From contig QCHN01000002.1 in the NCBI GenBank assembly GCA_003279565.1, positions 1 to 64,000 of the forward strand: a stretch of DNA of 64,000 nt. The letters run 5' to 3'. The position numbers and the translations under genes were made by a program. The stretch is from Prochlorococcus sp. AG-402-C09 (GTDB taxonomy: Bacteria; Cyanobacteriota; Cyanobacteriia; PCC-6307; Cyanobiaceae). Below, in pieces: positions 10,450-18,166 of this stretch (positions are counted from its first letter, which is position 1; every line of letters begins with the position of its first letter). The notes below the pieces were generated by a model that was not told the DNA's origin, did not search any database, and saw only the letters and a program-made list of their open reading frames with translations.

Positions 10450-11523
10450 TTATCCGAATCCTTGAGGTGCTGTTTTTGTCCGAACCTTAAACTCCCAAAC
10501 CGTAATTCCTCCATTTGCATTTATTGCAGCCAAGGCAGTGTCATCAGGATGCCAAGCGATTTGGCTTACAAGGTCACCTGCAAATGCACCACCAACTGGA
10601 TCACCCTGACCATCTTTTTGGAGAAACCAAGAAAAAACTGAACCATCGCGCGCGCCAGAAGCTAAAAGCATCCCGCTATGTGAGAAAGCAAGGCATGAGA
10701 TGGGTTCGGTATGAAGCATTAACTCTCCTGGCACAGTGCCCTCAGGGCCATCGCCTTGAAAACTCCAAACCGTCACTCGATCACTACCCCCGGTAGCAAG
10801 GACTGTACCGGTTTGATCAAAAGCTAGATGGCTTGGTTTACCTGGGTAGCCTGTCATCTCTGAATCTTGATCAGTGGAACGACGCCAGAAATGAACAGAA
10901 TTATCTTGACTGCCGCATGCCACTATGTCTCCATCTGGACTAAGCACCATAGATACCAGTGAGCCTCGCCACTCCAACTTTTGATTGATCTTGTCGCCTA
11001 CTACATCATAAAAAGTTACTTGGCCGTAGCATGCTGTGGCTAATTCATTGGAATTAGACCAAGAAATCGCGCTGACAGTGCTGGGATGCTCCTCTGATCG
11101 CCAATGTTCTTGACCATTTTCATCAAAAACATAGACGTATTTAGTAAAAACTATTGCTAAAAATTTTCCGTCTGGGGACCACTTGATGTGTTCAACCCAT
11201 CCTTTCCCTAGTTCCAAATTTTTAGTTGACTTACCCTCTTTGCTTTCCCATATACACACATGTCCATCTTGGCCAGCAGTTGCAAAAGTATTTCCATCTG
11301 GATGAATAGACATTGCTAGTAAGCCACCTTTATGTATGTCTTTTGATTGCCAAATAAGCTTTCCAGATTTCCCCTCAAATGCGTAAAGCCCTCCAGCAAC
11401 ATCACCTACTAAAAAGGTTTTACCTTGTAGTGCCCAGCCGCAGACAATCGCATAGTCGTCAACTTGAGCAGACCAACCTTCATGAAGCATTCCTTTTGGA
11501 CTAAATGCTTCTATACCAGACAT
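10450..11523 (-). CDS. WD40 repeat protein linked to zinc GTPase
   Basis: A 357-residue cytoplasmic beta-propeller without signal peptide. About seven WD40 blades are visible, each with the usual hydrophobic-SPDG or HPDG turn followed by a W or F strand end: HPDGNTFATAGQDGHVCIW, SPDGKFLAIVF, SPDGDIVACGSQDNSVHFW, GTVLATGGSDRVTVW, SGMLLASGARDGSVFSW and HPDDTALAAINANGGITVW. Such propellers are scaffolds. The gene overlaps the upstream GTPase gene by 13 bases, so both are made from one message, and the propeller probably works with that GTPase in zinc handling. This functional link is inference from the overlap and neighbours. Confidence 0.9.
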   Translation of the reverse strand: MSGIEAFSPKGMLHEGWSAQVDDYAIVCGWALQGKTFLVGDVAGGLYAFEGKSGKLIWQSKDIHKGGLLAMSIHPDGNTFATAGQDGHVCIWESKEGKSTKNLELGKGWVEHIKWSPDGKFLAIVFTKYVYVFDENGQEHWRSEEHPSTVSAISWSNSNELATACYGQVTFYDVVGDKINQKLEWRGSLVSMVLSPDGDIVACGSQDNSVHFWRRSTDQDSEMTGYPGKPSHLAFDQTGTVLATGGSDRVTVWSFQGDGPEGTVPGELMLHTEPISCLAFSHSGMLLASGARDGSVFSWFLQKDGQGDPVGGAFAGDLVSQIAWHPDDTALAAINANGGITVWEFKVRTKTAPQGFG

Positions 11524-12893
11524 TTGTCAAACTCTTTACTCATTTCTGCTTCATCAAGATTTCTACCGATAAAGACGAGTTGGTTACGGCGAGGTTCATT
11601 GCCCCATTCTTTATCAGGTTGTGCTGTGAAGAGCATGTGTACTCCTTGAAAAACTATTCGCTTAGATTCACCCGCATAACTAATGAAACCTTTAGTGCGA
11701 AATATATCCACACCTTTCTCAGACAAAAGTCGACTTAGCCATCTATTGAGTTTCTCCGGATCTACATCACCCTCTCGCTCGATAGCGAATGAACCTACTT
11801 CGTCATCGTGTTCGTGTTCAGCTACCCAAACCCTCTCAGCTATTGGAGAAATTGTAGAGATGTTCTGATCATTATCTATCTCGTCTGTAGAAGGAGTATT
11901 TACTTTCGTTAATTTCATATTAAATTCTTCGGCTGTATGTTGCGTGAATAGGCCTATATCCCTTGCCTGATCAACATCTATGAAGAAGGACTTAGTCCCT
12001 TCGGATTGAAGTTGAAGGCTCACATGCTTACCGACTGGAACCAAATCCCCTGGATTCATAAGTTGTTCTTGTTCTGCGTAGAGTCTCACGCATGATTCAG
12101 CACCTGTGTTAAGTGCTGTCTCGTCTTTACCTTGGTCTAATAACTGGACGAGAGACATTGTGGGGTCTGGACCTTCTTCGAGCGTAAGTTCATAGCGACC
12201 TTTTTCAAGTGAAAAAACACCTGTCCACTCAAATGGGTATTCTGGTTCAAGAAAAGTTGGACGACGCTGAAGTACTTGATCTAGATCAAAAGCACTTAGA
12301 TTTAGCACAGTATCAATTGAGACGTCTGCTTGTTTACTGCGTATGACACGAGCCATACGATTCATATCGCGTAGCCGTGCTTCTAAGTTGTCGAGTGATT
12401 CATCTGAAACTAGATCTGTTTTATTTAGGACAAGGACGTCAGCAAAGGCAACTTGCTCCGAACTTTCATCACTTCGACCAAGTTGTTGCTCTATATGGGC
12501 TGCATCAACAAGTGTGACTATTCCATCAAGTGAAAACTCCTCACGGATTTCATCGTCCATAAAGAATGTCTGAGCGACAGGACCAGGATCAGCAAGGCCA
12601 GTAGTTTCAACTAATACATAGTCAAATTTGTCTCGCCTCTTCATGAGGTTTCCAAGTACACGAATAAGATCACCCCGAACGGTGCAGCAAATGCAACCAT
12701 TGGACATCTCGAAGACCTCTTCATCAGCATTGATGACTAATCCCTGATCAATGCCAACTTCACCATATTCATTCTCAATAACAGCTATTTTTTTACCGTG
12801 CTCTTCGCTAAGGATTCGATTGAGTAGGGTTGTTTTGCCAGATCCTAGAAAACCAGTAAGTATTGTAACCGGTACTTTTTGTGTGTTGATCAT
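11511..12893 (-). CDS. COG0523 (CobW/ZNG-type) G3E GTPase, putative zinc chaperone
   Basis: A metal-chaperone GTPase of 460 residues. The N-terminal G domain has Walker A GFLGSGKTT (14-22), the metal-binding CxCC motif (Cys67, 69, 70) that defines COG0523, ETTGLADP (96-103) and NKTD (157-160). The C-terminal CobW_C domain spans about 354-450 (RVWVAEHEHDDE to QLVFIGRNLDE). Between them, at about 219-328, lies an extra domain starting PFEWTGVFSLEKGRYEL and ending LFTQHTAEEFNM, which resembles an insertion in the adjacent ZnuA. Setting beside znuABC and zur argues for zinc rather than cobalt. It is probably co-transcribed with the WD40 gene. The client metalloenzyme is unknown. Confidence 0.92.
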   Translation of the reverse strand: MINTQKVPVTILTGFLGSGKTTLLNRILSEEHGKKIAVIENEYGEVGIDQGLVINADEEVFEMSNGCICCTVRGDLIRVLGNLMKRRDKFDYVLVETTGLADPGPVAQTFFMDDEIREEFSLDGIVTLVDAAHIEQQLGRSDESSEQVAFADVLVLNKTDLVSDESLDNLEARLRDMNRMARVIRSKQADVSIDTVLNLSAFDLDQVLQRRPTFLEPEYPFEWTGVFSLEKGRYELTLEEGPDPTMSLVQLLDQGKDETALNTGAESCVRLYAEQEQLMNPGDLVPVGKHVSLQLQSEGTKSFFIDVDQARDIGLFTQHTAEEFNMKLTKVNTPSTDEIDNDQNISTISPIAERVWVAEHEHDDEVGSFAIEREGDVDPEKLNRWLSRLLSEKGVDIFRTKGFISYAGESKRIVFQGVHMLFTAQPDKEWGNEPRRNQLVFIGRNLDEAEMSKEFDKCLV

Positions 12894-12947
12894 TTTCTTT
12901 AATTAACTATGTGAACAATGAGTGCTATCAAGAGAAATATCAGTTAG

Positions 12948-13160
12948 CTAATTCTTTTGGATACCCAACAATTCAAGTGATTTTAATTCAAAGTCATCAA
13001 GCTCATGATAATTGTAAGGAACTTTTAGTCTTACTGTAAGCTTGCTGTTCTCTTTTTTCAGCGAATGATTTGAAAATTGAAGTTCTTTTAGATTGTCATC
13101 AAAATCAGTTGCGACAGTAAGTTTTAATATCTTATCTTTATCCCATGGTGGTTTATCCAT
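12948..13160 (-). CDS. Small hypothetical protein (70 aa) between GTPase and znuA
   Basis: A 70-residue ATG-started frame, acidic and lysine-rich, with no cysteine and only two histidines, no signal peptide and no membrane segment. Its C-terminal half (KLTVRLKVPYNYHELDDFEL) looks like alternating beta strands. It reads in the same direction as znuA upstream and the GTPase gene downstream, with 54 bases to the latter. It may be part of the same zinc-responsive transcript, but that is inference. I do not recognise a family. Confidence 0.55.
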   Translation of the reverse strand: MDKPPWDKDKILKLTVATDFDDNLKELQFSNHSLKKENSKLTVRLKVPYNYHELDDFELKSLELLGIQKN

Positions 13161-13227
13161 GAAACTTGCTTGGTCTTCTCAGTGTTGTTTGTAAACTTTA
13201 TATCCTTTAGTTGGAAACATTTTTTTA

Positions 13228-13261
13228 AATCCCATCTACATTTAAAAATGTAGATGGGATT
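13228..13261. terminator. Strong hairpin downstream of znuA
   Basis: A perfect 15-bp stem (13228-13242 with 13247-13261) closes a four-base loop, 14 bases past the znuA stop. Its position fits transcript termination or 3'-end protection for znuA. However, on the znuA strand it is followed by an A-rich stretch rather than a T run, so it is not a canonical intrinsic terminator. It could instead be an attenuating or processing hairpin before the 70-residue gene. Confidence 0.5.
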
Positions 13262-13274
13262 GTATCTGTAAAAG

Positions 13275-14762
13275 TTAAGGATTAATTAAAGAATTCCATT
13301 TCCCCTCAAGTGCATCGCCCTCTTGCTCATTACATTCTCCACCAAGTGAATTAACAATTGTGCAGGTGTTATGTACAGCAACTGAAATAGTATTCCCTGT
13401 TGGCATTAGACCGTCAACATAGATTTGATTTGATGCGATAGGAGTGGAAGTTTGTCTACTGAGGTTTCTCAATAGCTTTGAAGGAGGCTTTTGCTCAGCG
13501 AATAAAACTTTCACGTTTTCTTCTTTAAGCTCAGCTAATACAGTTGAAATAGTTTGAGGCCTAAGGCTGGATGAATCACCAAGAACATCTAGTAGGCTCA
13601 TGGTCTTCAATCCAAATGCATCTCCATAATATTCCATGGCTTTGTGCTTAGAAACCATCGTCCTTTGATCAGAAGGAATAGTAGCTATTTGTTCTTGAGT
13701 CCATTGATCTAGATCTTCCAAAATGGAATTTACAGATTGAGTTCTTTCTTTTAAAACTTTTTTAGTTTCTCTATCAAAGAATGAAATCTTCTTGTTGATA
13801 TTTTTAGAAATTACATTTCCCATCTTGATGATGTTATGTGGATCATGCCAGATATGAGGATCTAAGCCTCCATGGTCATGGTGATGATGATCTCCTTCAT
13901 CTGGTACTTGGGCAATAGGTTCAACATCGTCGCCTGAAACATCTTTAAAGAAATGTTCATCGGCTTCAAATTCAAACGGCATATGCTCAGTAAAGAAAGC
14001 GTATTTACCAGATTTTTTAATTTCTACAGTAAATGTTGTGATATCTTTCTTTTCATTAAATGTAAGAAGGTAGGCTTTGTCCTGCGCAATAAGTTTGTCG
14101 TTATTGCGCTTAACTTCTGAATTTTTGGATCCTAATAATTCTTTAGCAAGCTCTTCTGATGCTTCAATATCACCAGACTTAAGAATAACCATTTTCATCG
14201 CAGGATCAGCATAGTCTCCATCAACTTTGGCGAAAGACCATTTGTAGACTCCTGCGGAAAGATCAAAAACACCAGCCCATTCAAAAGCTCCCTCTCCATG
14301 GGCATCGCCATGATCATCGTGGTCGTCATGATCATCATGCTTAGCAGCTGAATGATCGTCATGATCATCGTGGTCGTCATGATCGTCTATTTCTATTGCA
14401 CTTACACCAACGACAACAGTTAAGGGATTATCTAACCATTTTTTAATTGCAGGGGTCATCTCTGAACCTAAAGTAAATACTTGATTCGCACTTTTTAGTG
14501 TTTGAGCTTGCCTTGGGGTGATCTTGACATCATGAACATCTTGCTTTCTGTCAATTAAGCAGGTTACAGGCGTTGAGGGTGGTGCAATCGCAGAGACAAC
14601 ATCGCAAACCAATGGCTCTACAGCAACAATTGATTTTGTATTTGCCTGCGCTGTCTGATTGATTCCAGAAAATAAAAATGCTCCAGCAACAAGAGAACTT
14701 TTGAGAACTGTTTTATTGATTATGGGTTTAGCCTTTTTGGACTGATTTGAAAAATTCGACAT
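13275..14762 (-). CDS. znuA: ZnuA zinc ABC transporter substrate-binding protein with His/Asp-rich loops and an inserted domain
   Basis: Periplasmic zinc receptor, cluster A-I fold, 495 residues, much longer than the usual 300 or so. A signal peptide ends near AQA-N41. Likely zinc ligands are His77, His303 (in DPHIWHDP), His373 (SKHKAMEY) and Glu423 (FAEQKPP). There are two metal-rich loops: tandem DDH repeats at about 126-153 and DHHHHDHGG near 291-299. Between them, at about 159-268, sits an extra domain (FEWAGVFDLSAGVYKW to FFTEHMPFEF) that matches the one in the nearby COG0523 GTPase. It is divergent from znuC across a Zur-like box, so repression by zinc is expected. Confidence 0.95.
   Translation of the reverse strand: MSNFSNQSKKAKPIINKTVLKSSLVAGAFLFSGINQTAQANTKSIVAVEPLVCDVVSAIAPPSTPVTCLIDRKQDVHDVKITPRQAQTLKSANQVFTLGSEMTPAIKKWLDNPLTVVVGVSAIEIDDHDDHDDHDDHSAAKHDDHDDHDDHGDAHGEGAFEWAGVFDLSAGVYKWSFAKVDGDYADPAMKMVILKSGDIEASEELAKELLGSKNSEVKRNNDKLIAQDKAYLLTFNEKKDITTFTVEIKKSGKYAFFTEHMPFEFEADEHFFKDVSGDDVEPIAQVPDEGDHHHHDHGGLDPHIWHDPHNIIKMGNVISKNINKKISFFDRETKKVLKERTQSVNSILEDLDQWTQEQIATIPSDQRTMVSKHKAMEYYGDAFGLKTMSLLDVLGDSSSLRPQTISTVLAELKEENVKVLFAEQKPPSKLLRNLSRQTSTPIASNQIYVDGLMPTGNTISVAVHNTCTIVNSLGGECNEQEGDALEGKWNSLINP
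14304..14387 (-). repeat. Tandem repeat encoding DDH units in znuA
   Basis: About 84 bases of degenerate 9-base repeats (GATCATCGT/GGTCGTCAT-type units on the + strand) encode runs of Asp-Asp-His, interrupted by SAAKH and ending near HGDAHGEG. Repeats of this type expand and contract easily by slippage, so the loop length may vary between strains. The product is a flexible zinc-collecting loop. Confidence 0.85.
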
Positions 14763-14786: not shown

Positions 14787-14801
14787 CGATAATCATTTTC
14801 A
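14787..14801. promoter_or_regulatory. Zur box in the znuA-znuC intergenic region
   Basis: On the minus strand the sequence reads TGAAAATGATTATCG, which agrees at 13 of 15 positions with the 7-1-7 palindrome TGATAATNATTATCA known for cyanobacterial Zur and Fur-family operators. It lies in the 89-base gap between the divergently transcribed znuA and znuC starts, about 25 bases from znuA, so one operator could serve both. A Zur gene is immediately downstream of znuC, supporting zinc rather than iron as the signal. Confidence 0.75.
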
Positions 14802-14851
14802 TTTGGTCTTGGCAAGTATATTATGTTTCTTGTCAGCAAATCCTCTAATTG

Positions 14852-15547
14852 ATGCCTAGCTTGATTGCTGAAAATTTGACATATTCTTATTCAAGTAAAA
14901 TTAAACCTGCTTTAAGCAAGGTTTCTCTAAAGCTTGAACAAGGTACTTTGATTGCTCTTGTTGGTCCGAATGGTGCTGGTAAGTCCACATTATTAAGCTT
15001 GCTGCAAGGCAGTACTAAGCCGGATCAAGGAGAAATTACTGTTGATGGAAAACCATTAAGAAATAATCGATCTCAAGTGGCTTTAATGCCTCAGAGGGGG
15101 AAGCTGAATTGGAATTTTCCAATTACTGTTGAAGGATTAGTTTCTTTAGGTCGAGTCAATCATTCGAGATCGACTTGTTGTGAATTAGAAGCGGCTCTTC
15201 AACGTGTTGGAATATCTCATTTAGCAAAAAGGCGACTTGATGCTTTATCAGGTGGACAGCAACAAAGAGCATTACTCGCAAAAACCTTGATGAATCCTGC
15301 CAAAATATTTCTACTTGATGAACCGTGTTCTGCATTTGACCCTCCTGCAAAAGAAGATTTCCTATTAATCATTCGTCAGTTAGCTGATTCGGGATTGACG
15401 GTGTTCGTTAGTAGTCACGATTGGGGGACGTCCTTAAATGCTTATGACAAGGTTGTCGTTCTAGATAAGATTATTTTGGCTTCTGGCAACCCTGAAGAGG
15501 TGCAGGAAAAACTTAGTTCAATTAATTATCTGAGATGGAAAATATAG
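14852..15547 (+). CDS. znuC: ZnuC zinc ABC transporter ATPase
   Basis: ATPase of the zinc/manganese importer. It contains Walker A GPNGAGKSTLL near residue 37, the family segment ALMPQRGKLNWNFPITVEGL, signature LSGGQQQRALLAKTL, Walker B IFLLDEPCSAFDP and switch histidine in SSHDWG. The ATG at 14852 is preferred over an overlapping TTG at 14849. It is divergent from znuA and followed by a convergent zur gene. The permease ZnuB lies beyond zur, so the transporter is split by a gene on the other strand. Confidence 0.94.
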   Translation: MPSLIAENLTYSYSSKIKPALSKVSLKLEQGTLIALVGPNGAGKSTLLSLLQGSTKPDQGEITVDGKPLRNNRSQVALMPQRGKLNWNFPITVEGLVSLGRVNHSRSTCCELEAALQRVGISHLAKRRLDALSGGQQQRALLAKTLMNPAKIFLLDEPCSAFDPPAKEDFLLIIRQLADSGLTVFVSSHDWGTSLNAYDKVVVLDKIILASGNPEEVQEKLSSINYLRWKI

Positions 15548-15573: not shown

Positions 15574-15975
15574 TCAAGCATTCAATTCTTGGGAACAATT
15601 TTGGCAGAGGCCAAAGTATTCAAGAGTATGAAACAACAGCTCAAATTCTTTAGAGGCTTTTTGGGGTATGTGCATTGTTTTGACGGGGCATCCTTTCAAT
15701 TGAGTGGTTTCTCCGCAGCTTACGCAAGTTAAATGATGAATATCTCTTTCAACTGGGGCATAAAGGACCTCTCCGTTCGGAAGGTGCCTCGAGCGTATCA
15801 AGCCTTGTTTTACTAACGCTTGCAAGTTCCTGTATACAGTCGTTAGCCCCATTGTCTTTTCACCATTATGAAGTTTTCTATGCAGATCTTGTCCACTCAA
15901 CTCATCAGTGCATCTCTTAAGTTCATTGAGAAGCTGTTTCTGTCTCTTAGTGATGTCATGCTTGCTTGTACTCAT
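15574..15975 (-). CDS. zur: Zur-type FUR family repressor
   Basis: Ferric-uptake-regulator family protein, about 133 residues from the ATG used (MSTSKHDITKRQ). An upstream ATG at 16011 would add 12 residues but leave only 17 bases before znuB. The N-terminal winged helix includes MGLTTVYRNLQALVKQGLI. The C-terminal dimer domain has IHHLTCVSCG and GLCQNCSQE, giving two CxxC pairs that form the structural zinc site. Short length, both CxxC pairs and placement between znuC and znuB make Zur much more likely than Fur or PerR. It should repress znuA/znuC when zinc is ample. Confidence 0.9.
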   Translation of the reverse strand: MSTSKHDITKRQKQLLNELKRCTDELSGQDLHRKLHNGEKTMGLTTVYRNLQALVKQGLIRSRHLPNGEVLYAPVERDIHHLTCVSCGETTQLKGCPVKTMHIPQKASKEFELLFHTLEYFGLCQNCSQELNA

Positions 15976-16028
15976 TAGCAAGATCTTAATTTGATCTCTC
16001 CTACTGAACATACTGAATCATTTGCTTA

Positions 16029-16814
16029 ATGTCTTTTATCAATACAAATTGGTGGATAATTCCTCTTCTGATAACTTCCTTTTCAGGAGTGCTTTGCCCT
16101 GCCATGGGGACTGTATTGATAACTCATAAAAGGCTTCTTCAAGTTAATTTGATTTCACACTGTGTTTTGCCAGGACTTGCCTTGGCTATGGCGCTTGGGA
16201 TTGACCCATCTATTGGAGGTGTCTTAAGCGGATTAGTGGGAGCTATTGCAGCAGAAAGTTTGACAAATAAGAAAAATCAAAATTATGAAGCTGTAATGAA
16301 TACAATTCTTGCTGGTTCGATGGGACTTGGTGTTTTGCTTATACCTCTACTTGGAATCAGGATTGATTTAGAAGCTGTTTTGTTTGGAGATTTATTAACT
16401 GCAAATTTGAGCGATTTATTAAGAACTTTGATTGCGTTTTCGGCTTTCATTTGCCTAATGCTTTTTGGTTACGACAAGCTTGTTCATATTGGTTTGGACC
16501 CAGAAGGAGCTGCTTCAAGTGGAGTTAATGTCTCTTTTTTGAATCTAGCTCTGGGATTTACCACTGCACTTGTCATTGTGAGCTCAATGTCTGCAGTCGG
16601 AGTCATCCTCGTGATTGCGCTACTTTCAACTCCAACTTTGTTGGGTTTACAGAAGGCTAGATCTCTATGGGTTGCTATGGTTCGATCTTCCATATTTGGA
16701 TTGATTTTATCGATCATTGGTTTTTCAATTTCTATGTTTATGAATTTGCCTCCAGGGCCTCTTATTAGTGTTCTTTGTGTGATTTCATTGATCTTGCTTC
16801 CAAGAAGTAATTAG
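16029..16814 (+). CDS. znuB: ZnuB zinc ABC transporter permease
   Basis: Inner-membrane permease of the ABC-3 family, 261 residues with about seven to eight hydrophobic helices. The family's early segment RLLQVNLISHCVLPGLALA is at about residues 35-55, and the later GLDPEGAASSGVNV and VIVSSMSAVGVILVIALLSTPT are typical. The ATG lies close to the divergent zur gene, so it either has its own promoter overlapping the zur start or is reached by readthrough from znuC across zur in antisense. It pairs with ZnuC. Confidence 0.94.
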   Translation: MSFINTNWWIIPLLITSFSGVLCPAMGTVLITHKRLLQVNLISHCVLPGLALAMALGIDPSIGGVLSGLVGAIAAESLTNKKNQNYEAVMNTILAGSMGLGVLLIPLLGIRIDLEAVLFGDLLTANLSDLLRTLIAFSAFICLMLFGYDKLVHIGLDPEGAASSGVNVSFLNLALGFTTALVIVSSMSAVGVILVIALLSTPTLLGLQKARSLWVAMVRSSIFGLILSIIGFSISMFMNLPPGPLISVLCVISLILLPRSN

Positions 16815-17722: not shown

Positions 17723-18166
17723 TTAGTTTGGATTGATATGGCTTGCACAAGGCATCCATAATTTGCCCATCTTATGTACACCAATGCAACCTAAATTGTT
17801 GGCTTCGATCTCTGCCTGAGTTTTAGTTGGAAATGCATATAAGTTTTTTTGAGACGGAGAATTAGAACGATTGATTAATTCTTGATAAGCATTATTTCCT
17901 GGACTCCATACCTTTAGTCCCATGGTCGTTATACCTGCAGAAAATATTCCCATCCCGACTATGGATGCATTCACTACTCCCATGGCTACAGAACCAATAG
18001 AAACGACACCCATGGGAACAATCCCAATACTAATAATCCCCATGGGAACAATCCCAATGGAAATTAATCCAAATGGTGCTATTCCAAATGCAATTATTTT
18101 TGGTTTGCTTCCACAATGTGAATGCCCTTGGGGATTTTTCTGATCGGTACTATTTGAATTTTTCAT
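17723..18166 (-). CDS. Decapeptide-repeat membrane protein with C-terminal DUF3721
   Basis: A 147-residue protein in three parts. Residues 1-22 are hydrophilic and include HSHC. Residues 29-88 are six back-to-back 10-residue repeats of the form I-V-P-M-G-I-I-S-I-G, hydrophobic with a glycine every five residues, which should pack as glycine-zipper membrane helices or a hydrophobic solenoid. Residues 110-143 hold a DUF3721 motif (CIGVHKMGKLWMPCASH). The adjacent gene carries the same motif. Conserved Cys and His in the motif suggest metal binding, possibly copper or zinc; no function is established. Confidence 0.75.
   Translation of the reverse strand: MKNSNSTDQKNPQGHSHCGSKPKIIAFGIAPFGLISIGIVPMGIISIGIVPMGVVSIGSVAMGVVNASIVGMGIFSAGITTMGLKVWSPGNNAYQELINRSNSPSQKNLYAFPTKTQAEIEANNLGCIGVHKMGKLWMPCASHINPN
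17903..18082 (-). repeat. Six 30-base repeats inside the DUF3721 gene
   Basis: The decapeptide repeats correspond to 30-base DNA units. The best-preserved copies share the 20 bases from 18009 to 18028 and again from 18039 to 18058, exactly 30 bases apart. Outer copies are more diverged. This indicates growth by tandem duplication within the gene, and copy number may differ between relatives. Confidence 0.85.

Follow-up and report, generated by a model that had tools for sequence, protein, structure and literature searches.

The zinc chaperone AztD hands zinc to the substrate-binding protein AztC and requires a flexible loop of AztC for this transfer, as described in the available part of the source (PMC6689063). 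The same part reports that ZinT, which binds metal, occurs as a fusion with a protein of the ZnuA type (PMC6689063). Among the COG0523 GTPases, subfamily 5 includes most eukaryotic members, and several members are predicted downstream of a Zur site; the accessible sections of Haas et al. 2009 also describe WD40 and znuABC neighbors for this subfamily (PMC2770081). The pairing of a GTPase gene with a WD40 gene is thus already known from that source. Here, we analyzed a 64,000-nucleotide stretch of Prochlorococcus sp. AG-402-C09 (contig QCHN01000002.1, positions 1 to 64,000, forward strand; hereafter the window), in which a COG0523 (G3E) GTPase and an adjacent ZnuA-like substrate-binding protein carry the same inserted domain. 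This domain spans about 115 residues, has no name in databases, and appears to be the new part of the arrangement. No such inserted domain was named in a literature search covering mostly titles and abstract beginnings, with subscription papers thinly covered, and the sections of Haas et al. 2009 at hand do not mention one (PMC2770081).

The initial annotation had proposed that one domain sits in two different metal proteins acting on opposite sides of the membrane, and this proposal was borne out. When the two whole proteins were compared by BLASTP, the only significant alignment joined GTPase residues 218-324 to ZnuA residues 157-265 (E 1e-5, 26% identity). The gene positions given were correct, and the FEW motif begins at residue 221 of the GTPase and residue 160 of ZnuA. 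For segments chosen beforehand, the Smith-Waterman score was 78, compared with a mean of 27.7 (standard deviation 4.7, maximum 60) for 2000 shuffles. A profile built from 78 GTPase inserts only retrieved the window ZnuA from 163 window open reading frames with an E value of 3.4e-15 (best reversed decoy 0.058). Conversely, a profile of 37 ZnuA inserts only retrieved the window GTPase at 3.5e-7 (best reversed decoy 0.97). Profile-profile comparison of the copies gave a probability of 98.6 and an E value of 7.7e-16 over 105 columns. The shuffles and reversed decoys rule out chance or composition as the source of the likeness. Each window copy also retrieves the other protein type in related genomes, and the expected recurrence in further COG0523 and ZnuA proteins was found.

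Structure prediction agreed with this result. AlphaFold2 models built from two separate alignments (predicted local distance difference test scores of 90.8 and 82.8) place the main strands and the helix in the same order, with three strands followed by a helix and then more strands. Differences between the models are small: the ZnuA copy has an additional short strand at 71-73, and only the GTPase copy has a final strand at 114-117. The inserts of the window proteins had no significant match in Pfam, NCBIfam, or PDB, and these searches gave no link to ZinT. With either model, a Foldseek search of PDB gave nothing at E 0.001 or better, and TM-scores among the rows shown were at most 0.44. Weak Foldseek matches of both models include the GOLD-type beta-sandwich domains of p24 proteins, and we do not claim membership in that family for the insert. 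ZepA is a zinc exoprotein of cyanobacteria that contains an Ig-like domain according to the available part of its source (PMC10957091), and it is a conceivable candidate for comparison with the insert. A phage or viral origin was rejected, as no phage record matched and, among 16 viral stretches fitting a pattern, none was confirmed.

Conservation was assessed with 55 copies below 85% identity, drawn from 168 distinct copies that cover at least 90 profile positions, with partial and weaker copies left out. These comprise 41 GTPase copies, 10 ZnuA copies, 3 lipoprotein-like copies, and 1 membrane protein copy. Four polar residues, E5, D30, H113, and E117, are invariant in 55/55, while W6 and F118 are conserved in 54/55 and M33 is replaced by Ile in 6. 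The corresponding motifs are [FW]EWxG, G-P-D-P-x-M, and H-x-x-x-E-F, and Cys is absent from the conserved columns. In the AlphaFold2 models, the four invariant residues lie at or adjacent to strand ends. A metal site formed by E, D, H, and E is a natural guess from this pattern.

We somewhat favor reading the domain as a portable beta-sandwich module that binds divalent metal, passes it on, and is not tied to zinc. The ZnuA copy, placed in a flexible His-rich loop above the metal cleft, would capture periplasmic metal and, together with the flanking His runs, deliver it to the cleft. The GTPase copy would take up metal or present it to the GTPase from the interdomain linker, and the GTPase, with the WD40 propeller as a partner or scaffold, would then load metal onto clients. 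The transfer of metal between domain and host, and the variation of the metal (zinc, cobalt, or nickel) with the host, are both steps that we infer. The initial annotation had suggested a common ligand, perhaps zinc itself or a partner. A common ligand is plausible given the residues invariant in all 55 copies and the metal-linked hosts, whereas zinc as the necessary ligand is not supported: a urease operon or a cobalt-factor methyltransferase gene adjoins some copies, and a gene annotated as a nickel transporter lies near another. Zinc is likely in some hosts, and nickel or cobalt suit other neighborhoods.

The insertion sites were consistent with a role in metal handling. Aligned with YjiA, the GTPase has residues 215-362 in place of six YjiA residues, in the stretch that joins the G domain to the C-terminal domain. 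One haloarchaeal COG0523 protein lacking the domain carries its His run in this same linker, which is filled by the domain in the window GTPase. His-rich runs flank the domain on both sides in the window ZnuA and in two haloarchaeal ZnuA proteins. The ZnuA relatives of Prochlorococcus at L155:2793-3962 (+) and L315:5388-6557 (+) lack the domain and have long His/Asp repeats in its place; the C-terminal lobe of the former shares 83% identity with the corresponding lobe of the window ZnuA. One genome (G196) holds both a domain-bearing and a domain-less ZnuA. Neither the second PF01297 protein of the source genome (a 343-residue frame) nor the readable PF01297 frames of Synechococcus-type relatives contain the domain, which rules out the insert as a general ZnuA feature. 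Tandem diverged pairs of the domain occur in Prochlorococcus ZnuA proteins at L157:2406-4253, L176:2410-4254, and L183:1099-2943. An apparent 873-residue double ZnuA (L312:6727-9345, G108) was discarded as an assembly gap since its frame holds a run of X.

Absence from such close relatives (L155, L315) and tandem doubling in some ZnuA proteins would also suit a rigid spacer or solubility element, free of ligand and tolerated by the loops of metal proteins. We consider this explanation very improbable, as the four polar residues do not vary in any of the four host types, whether bacterial or archaeal.

The closest parallel came from Dehalococcoidia. In L122:829-3300 (-), the zinc chaperone AztD is clearly inserted between the ZnuA lobes, with His-rich stretches on both sides (E 3.6e-31 to PDB 6cmk, NCBIfam 1.3e-36). 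In L123:1686-3629 (+), a single frame holds AztD (1.5e-34) followed by the ZnuA C-terminal lobe, and the N-terminal lobe lies upstream in another frame. A search of titles and abstract beginnings found no account of an AztD-ZnuA fusion. The presence of AztD in the same ZnuA loop (L122) offers the best analogy for what the new domain may do. In the AztD/AztC system, as far as the available portion of the source covers it, a metal carrier acts on a ZnuA-like protein through a flexible loop (PMC6689063). However, AztD forms a beta-propeller and is about 350 residues long, compared with a predicted sandwich of 115 residues for the insert; the window ZnuA did not match the AztD profile or structures.

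Beyond the window, a scan of 84,980 species genomes gave at least 544 confirmed relatives. A COG0523 P-loop was in frame in 77/80 of the best 80, and the remaining 3 frames were cut at a contig end; this list is biased to GTPases because the query led with a GTPase. Together with the tree rows, these loci span eight phyla: Cyanobacteriota, Acidobacteriota, Chloroflexota, Planctomycetota, Actinomycetota, Pseudomonadota, Gemmatimonadota, and Binatota. The frequency of the domain differed among genome samples. It was present in 2/299 Pseudomonadota (one being the sample center), 5/149 Actinomycetota (including the center and one dropped as chance), 16/221 Chloroflexota (including the center and two genomes already known), 18/244 Cyanobacteria, and 99/250 Cyanobiaceae. 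The dropped Actinomycetota match (L247, E 9e-4) has a stop in its frame and lies opposite a long open reading frame resembling a surface protein. Two or more matches were found in 82 of the 99 Cyanobiaceae carriers and one match in 17, nine of which are larger genomes (2.3-3.3 Mb) from two genera.

Searching 72,556 plasmid records with the Alicyclobacillus copy matched 11 records. These held four haloarchaeal ZnuA-type proteins, three haloarchaeal hypothetical proteins, the Alicyclobacillus membrane protein, a GTPase from Paraburkholderia (which, as annotated, begins without the P-loop part), another from Pantoea agglomerans, and a stretch of Pantoea soli. The Pantoea soli copy, perhaps a remnant, lies just before a short open reading frame annotated as GTP-binding, with a gene annotated as a nickel transporter nearby. 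Two of the haloarchaeal ZnuA copies adjoin a cobalt-factor methyltransferase gene. The three haloarchaeal hypothetical proteins are lipoprotein-like: each starts, by eye, with an RR-containing signal and a lipobox-like Cys, followed by HEHEH, the domain, and a His-rich tail. For the one from Natrinema (L207:3872-4423 (+)), Pfam listed nothing up to E 10 and NCBIfam gave nothing at 0.01; its gene comes immediately after ureF and the urease accessory operon, and a link to nickel is possible. In the Alicyclobacillus carrier (303 residues), hydrophobic segments flank the domain on either side, and a divalent metal transporter, cation transporters, and a metal-sensitive regulator are encoded nearby. 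Its HSILPDH stretch is one that we take to resemble the NicO/UreH nickel-cobalt permease; no significant Pfam or NCBIfam match was obtained, including to that permease. COG0523 GTPases, ZnuA, the haloarchaeal lipoprotein-like proteins, and the Alicyclobacillus membrane protein thus make up four host types, all metal-linked by family or neighbors.

A wider proposal, possible but less likely than the reading above, is that these domains form an undescribed superfamily of beta-sandwiches that bind metal, used by bacteria and archaea as a shared hand-off module on either side of the membrane. Such domains would extend or replace His-rich loops in several kinds of protein: uptake proteins, lipoproteins, a membrane protein, and G3E GTPases. 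Metal would be relayed from periplasm to cytoplasm by related domains, with the host setting zinc, cobalt, or nickel.

The WD40 gene accompanied the domain-bearing GTPase closely. It follows the GTPase gene in 81/81 loci. In 78 of these the two genes overlap or lie within about 130 bases of each other, and in the other three (L141, L148, and L172) the distance is about 1.5-1.7 kb. A second set of loci, of which L324 repeats a place from the first, showed the WD40 gene in 22/25; it was not seen in L201, L244, and L334, where the flanks are short. Among the 250 Cyanobiaceae genomes, a WD40 orthologue (E up to 1e-40) was found in exactly the 99 that hold the domain. Both the gene pairing and the identical genome sets are what would be expected of a protein-docking module without a metal site, binding the WD40 propeller and clients in the GTPase and some other partner in ZnuA. 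This is the main rival to a metal-binding module, and we judge it unlikely. Metal is a better fit for the four invariant residues and for the His-rich regions around the domain. In addition, the WD40 protein has no signal peptide by eye and is therefore hardly a partner for the ZnuA or lipoprotein-like copies.

Several observations weigh against a metal-binding module. The near-perfect GTPase-WD40 pairing is compatible with docking, and the four invariant residues could instead be structural or form a protein-binding face. The mean number of His per copy is lower in the GTPase (2.8) than in ZnuA (4.5), and the PDB searches provided no solved relative. His runs on both sides of the domain are not universal, as L157 has little His before the first of its two copies. 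L312 has long His/Asp repeats alongside the domain, so repeats and domain do not strictly exclude each other. The domain occurs in one place only in at least eight small-genome (Prochlorococcus-like) Cyanobiaceae, and two genomes of this kind, G159 and G211, both 99% complete, are listed with a GTPase-type match only.

The history of the domain was examined with a tree of the 55 non-redundant copies, in which long branches were flagged. Prochlorococcus ZnuA copies (100/100) group with haloarchaeal ZnuA and lipoprotein-like copies (99/93). The picocyanobacterial GTPase copies group with Chloroflexota, Gemmatimonadota, Binatota, and gammaproteobacterial copies (91/91). The initial annotation had read the shared domain as a transfer within this gene cluster, which the tree does not favor, though the approximately unbiased (AU) test left p at 0.09. 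For the ZnuA copy to have been derived from the adjacent GTPase gene, or the reverse, by local duplication is improbable in our estimate. The two genes are adjacent, and forcing the Prochlorococcus ZnuA copies together with the picocyanobacterial GTPase copies was not rejected below 0.05. However, the two window copies share only 26-28% identity, and the constrained tree was 28.3 log units worse than the one joining the ZnuA copies to the haloarchaeal copies. This evidence calls for caution, since the ZnuA copies stand on a long stem (1.71). Two other groupings also escaped rejection, with AU p values of 0.66 (all ZnuA copies as one clade) and 0.39 (Prochlorococcus ZnuA with all GTPase copies).

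How metal reaches ZnuA and the COG0523 GTPases is still little understood, and a small domain common to both, with its four invariant polar residues, offers a testable site. Prochlorococcus inhabits metal-poor ocean water, and the domain may determine which metal it takes up. Bacterial GTPases that fit subfamily 5 by neighborhood, with a candidate metal domain and a fixed WD40 partner, would also give a handle on GTPase loading. According to the available part of a Prochlorococcus review, the main ZnuA cluster is nearly absent, and another binding protein, annotated for zinc or manganese, is widespread with its metal unsettled (PMC8786288); it is a possible counterpart of the window ZnuA.

The features of the locus are collected in Table 1. 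The GTPase passes the Pfam cut-offs for the CobW nucleotide-binding domain (E 1.3e-61) and CobW_C (E 2.4e-26), and its CxCC metal motif is formed by Cys 67, 69, and 70. Its neighborhood, with the WD40 gene and the znuABC candidates, matches that of COG0523 subfamily 5 as given in the accessible sections of Haas et al. 2009, an assignment made by neighborhood. ZnuA scored 164.2 bits against PF01297 (cut-off 29) in two stretches, which reached 119.4 and 50.2 bits in a separate profile search. The two His runs give it the His-rich flexible loop characteristic of the zinc-specific type.

Table 1. Positions of the inserted domains, their host genes, and neighboring genes in the window
Feature	Position	Strand	Remarks
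COG0523 (G3E) GTPase, 460 residues	11511-12893	-	G domain residues 8-184, insert about 219-330, CobW_C 367-459, GCICC motif
Inserted domain of GTPase	11898-12239	-	Linker between G domain and CobW_C
ZnuA-like substrate-binding protein, 495 residues	13275-14762	-	Insert splits its two PF01297 stretches
Inserted domain of ZnuA	13944-14288	-	Within His/Asp-rich loop
His/Asp-rich stretch preceding ZnuA insert	14292-14390	-	Nine His, residues 128-155
His-rich stretch following ZnuA insert	13836-13898	-	Eight His, residues 292-309
WD40 beta-propeller gene	10450-11523	-	13-base overlap with GTPase gene end; orthologues pair with domain-bearing GTPase
ABC ATPase, ZnuC candidate	14849-15547	+	PF00005
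Fur-family regulator, Zur candidate	15574-16011	-	PF01475
ABC-3 family metal permease, ZnuB candidate	16029-16814	+	PF00950

The divergent znuA/znuC promoter contains a Fur/Zur-box-like sequence, CGATAATCATTTTCA, at 14787-14801, with two mismatches to the consensus. The motif gave 12 matches in the window compared with 9.3 expected, so the box has only its location in its favor. A perfect 16-nucleotide hairpin (13228-13261) lies just past the ZnuA gene, and a 70-residue open reading frame (12948-13160, -) is situated between the ZnuA and GTPase genes. Farther along the window, a 147-residue, apparently membrane-bound protein (17723-18166, -) contains repeated IGIVPMGxxSIG-like units.

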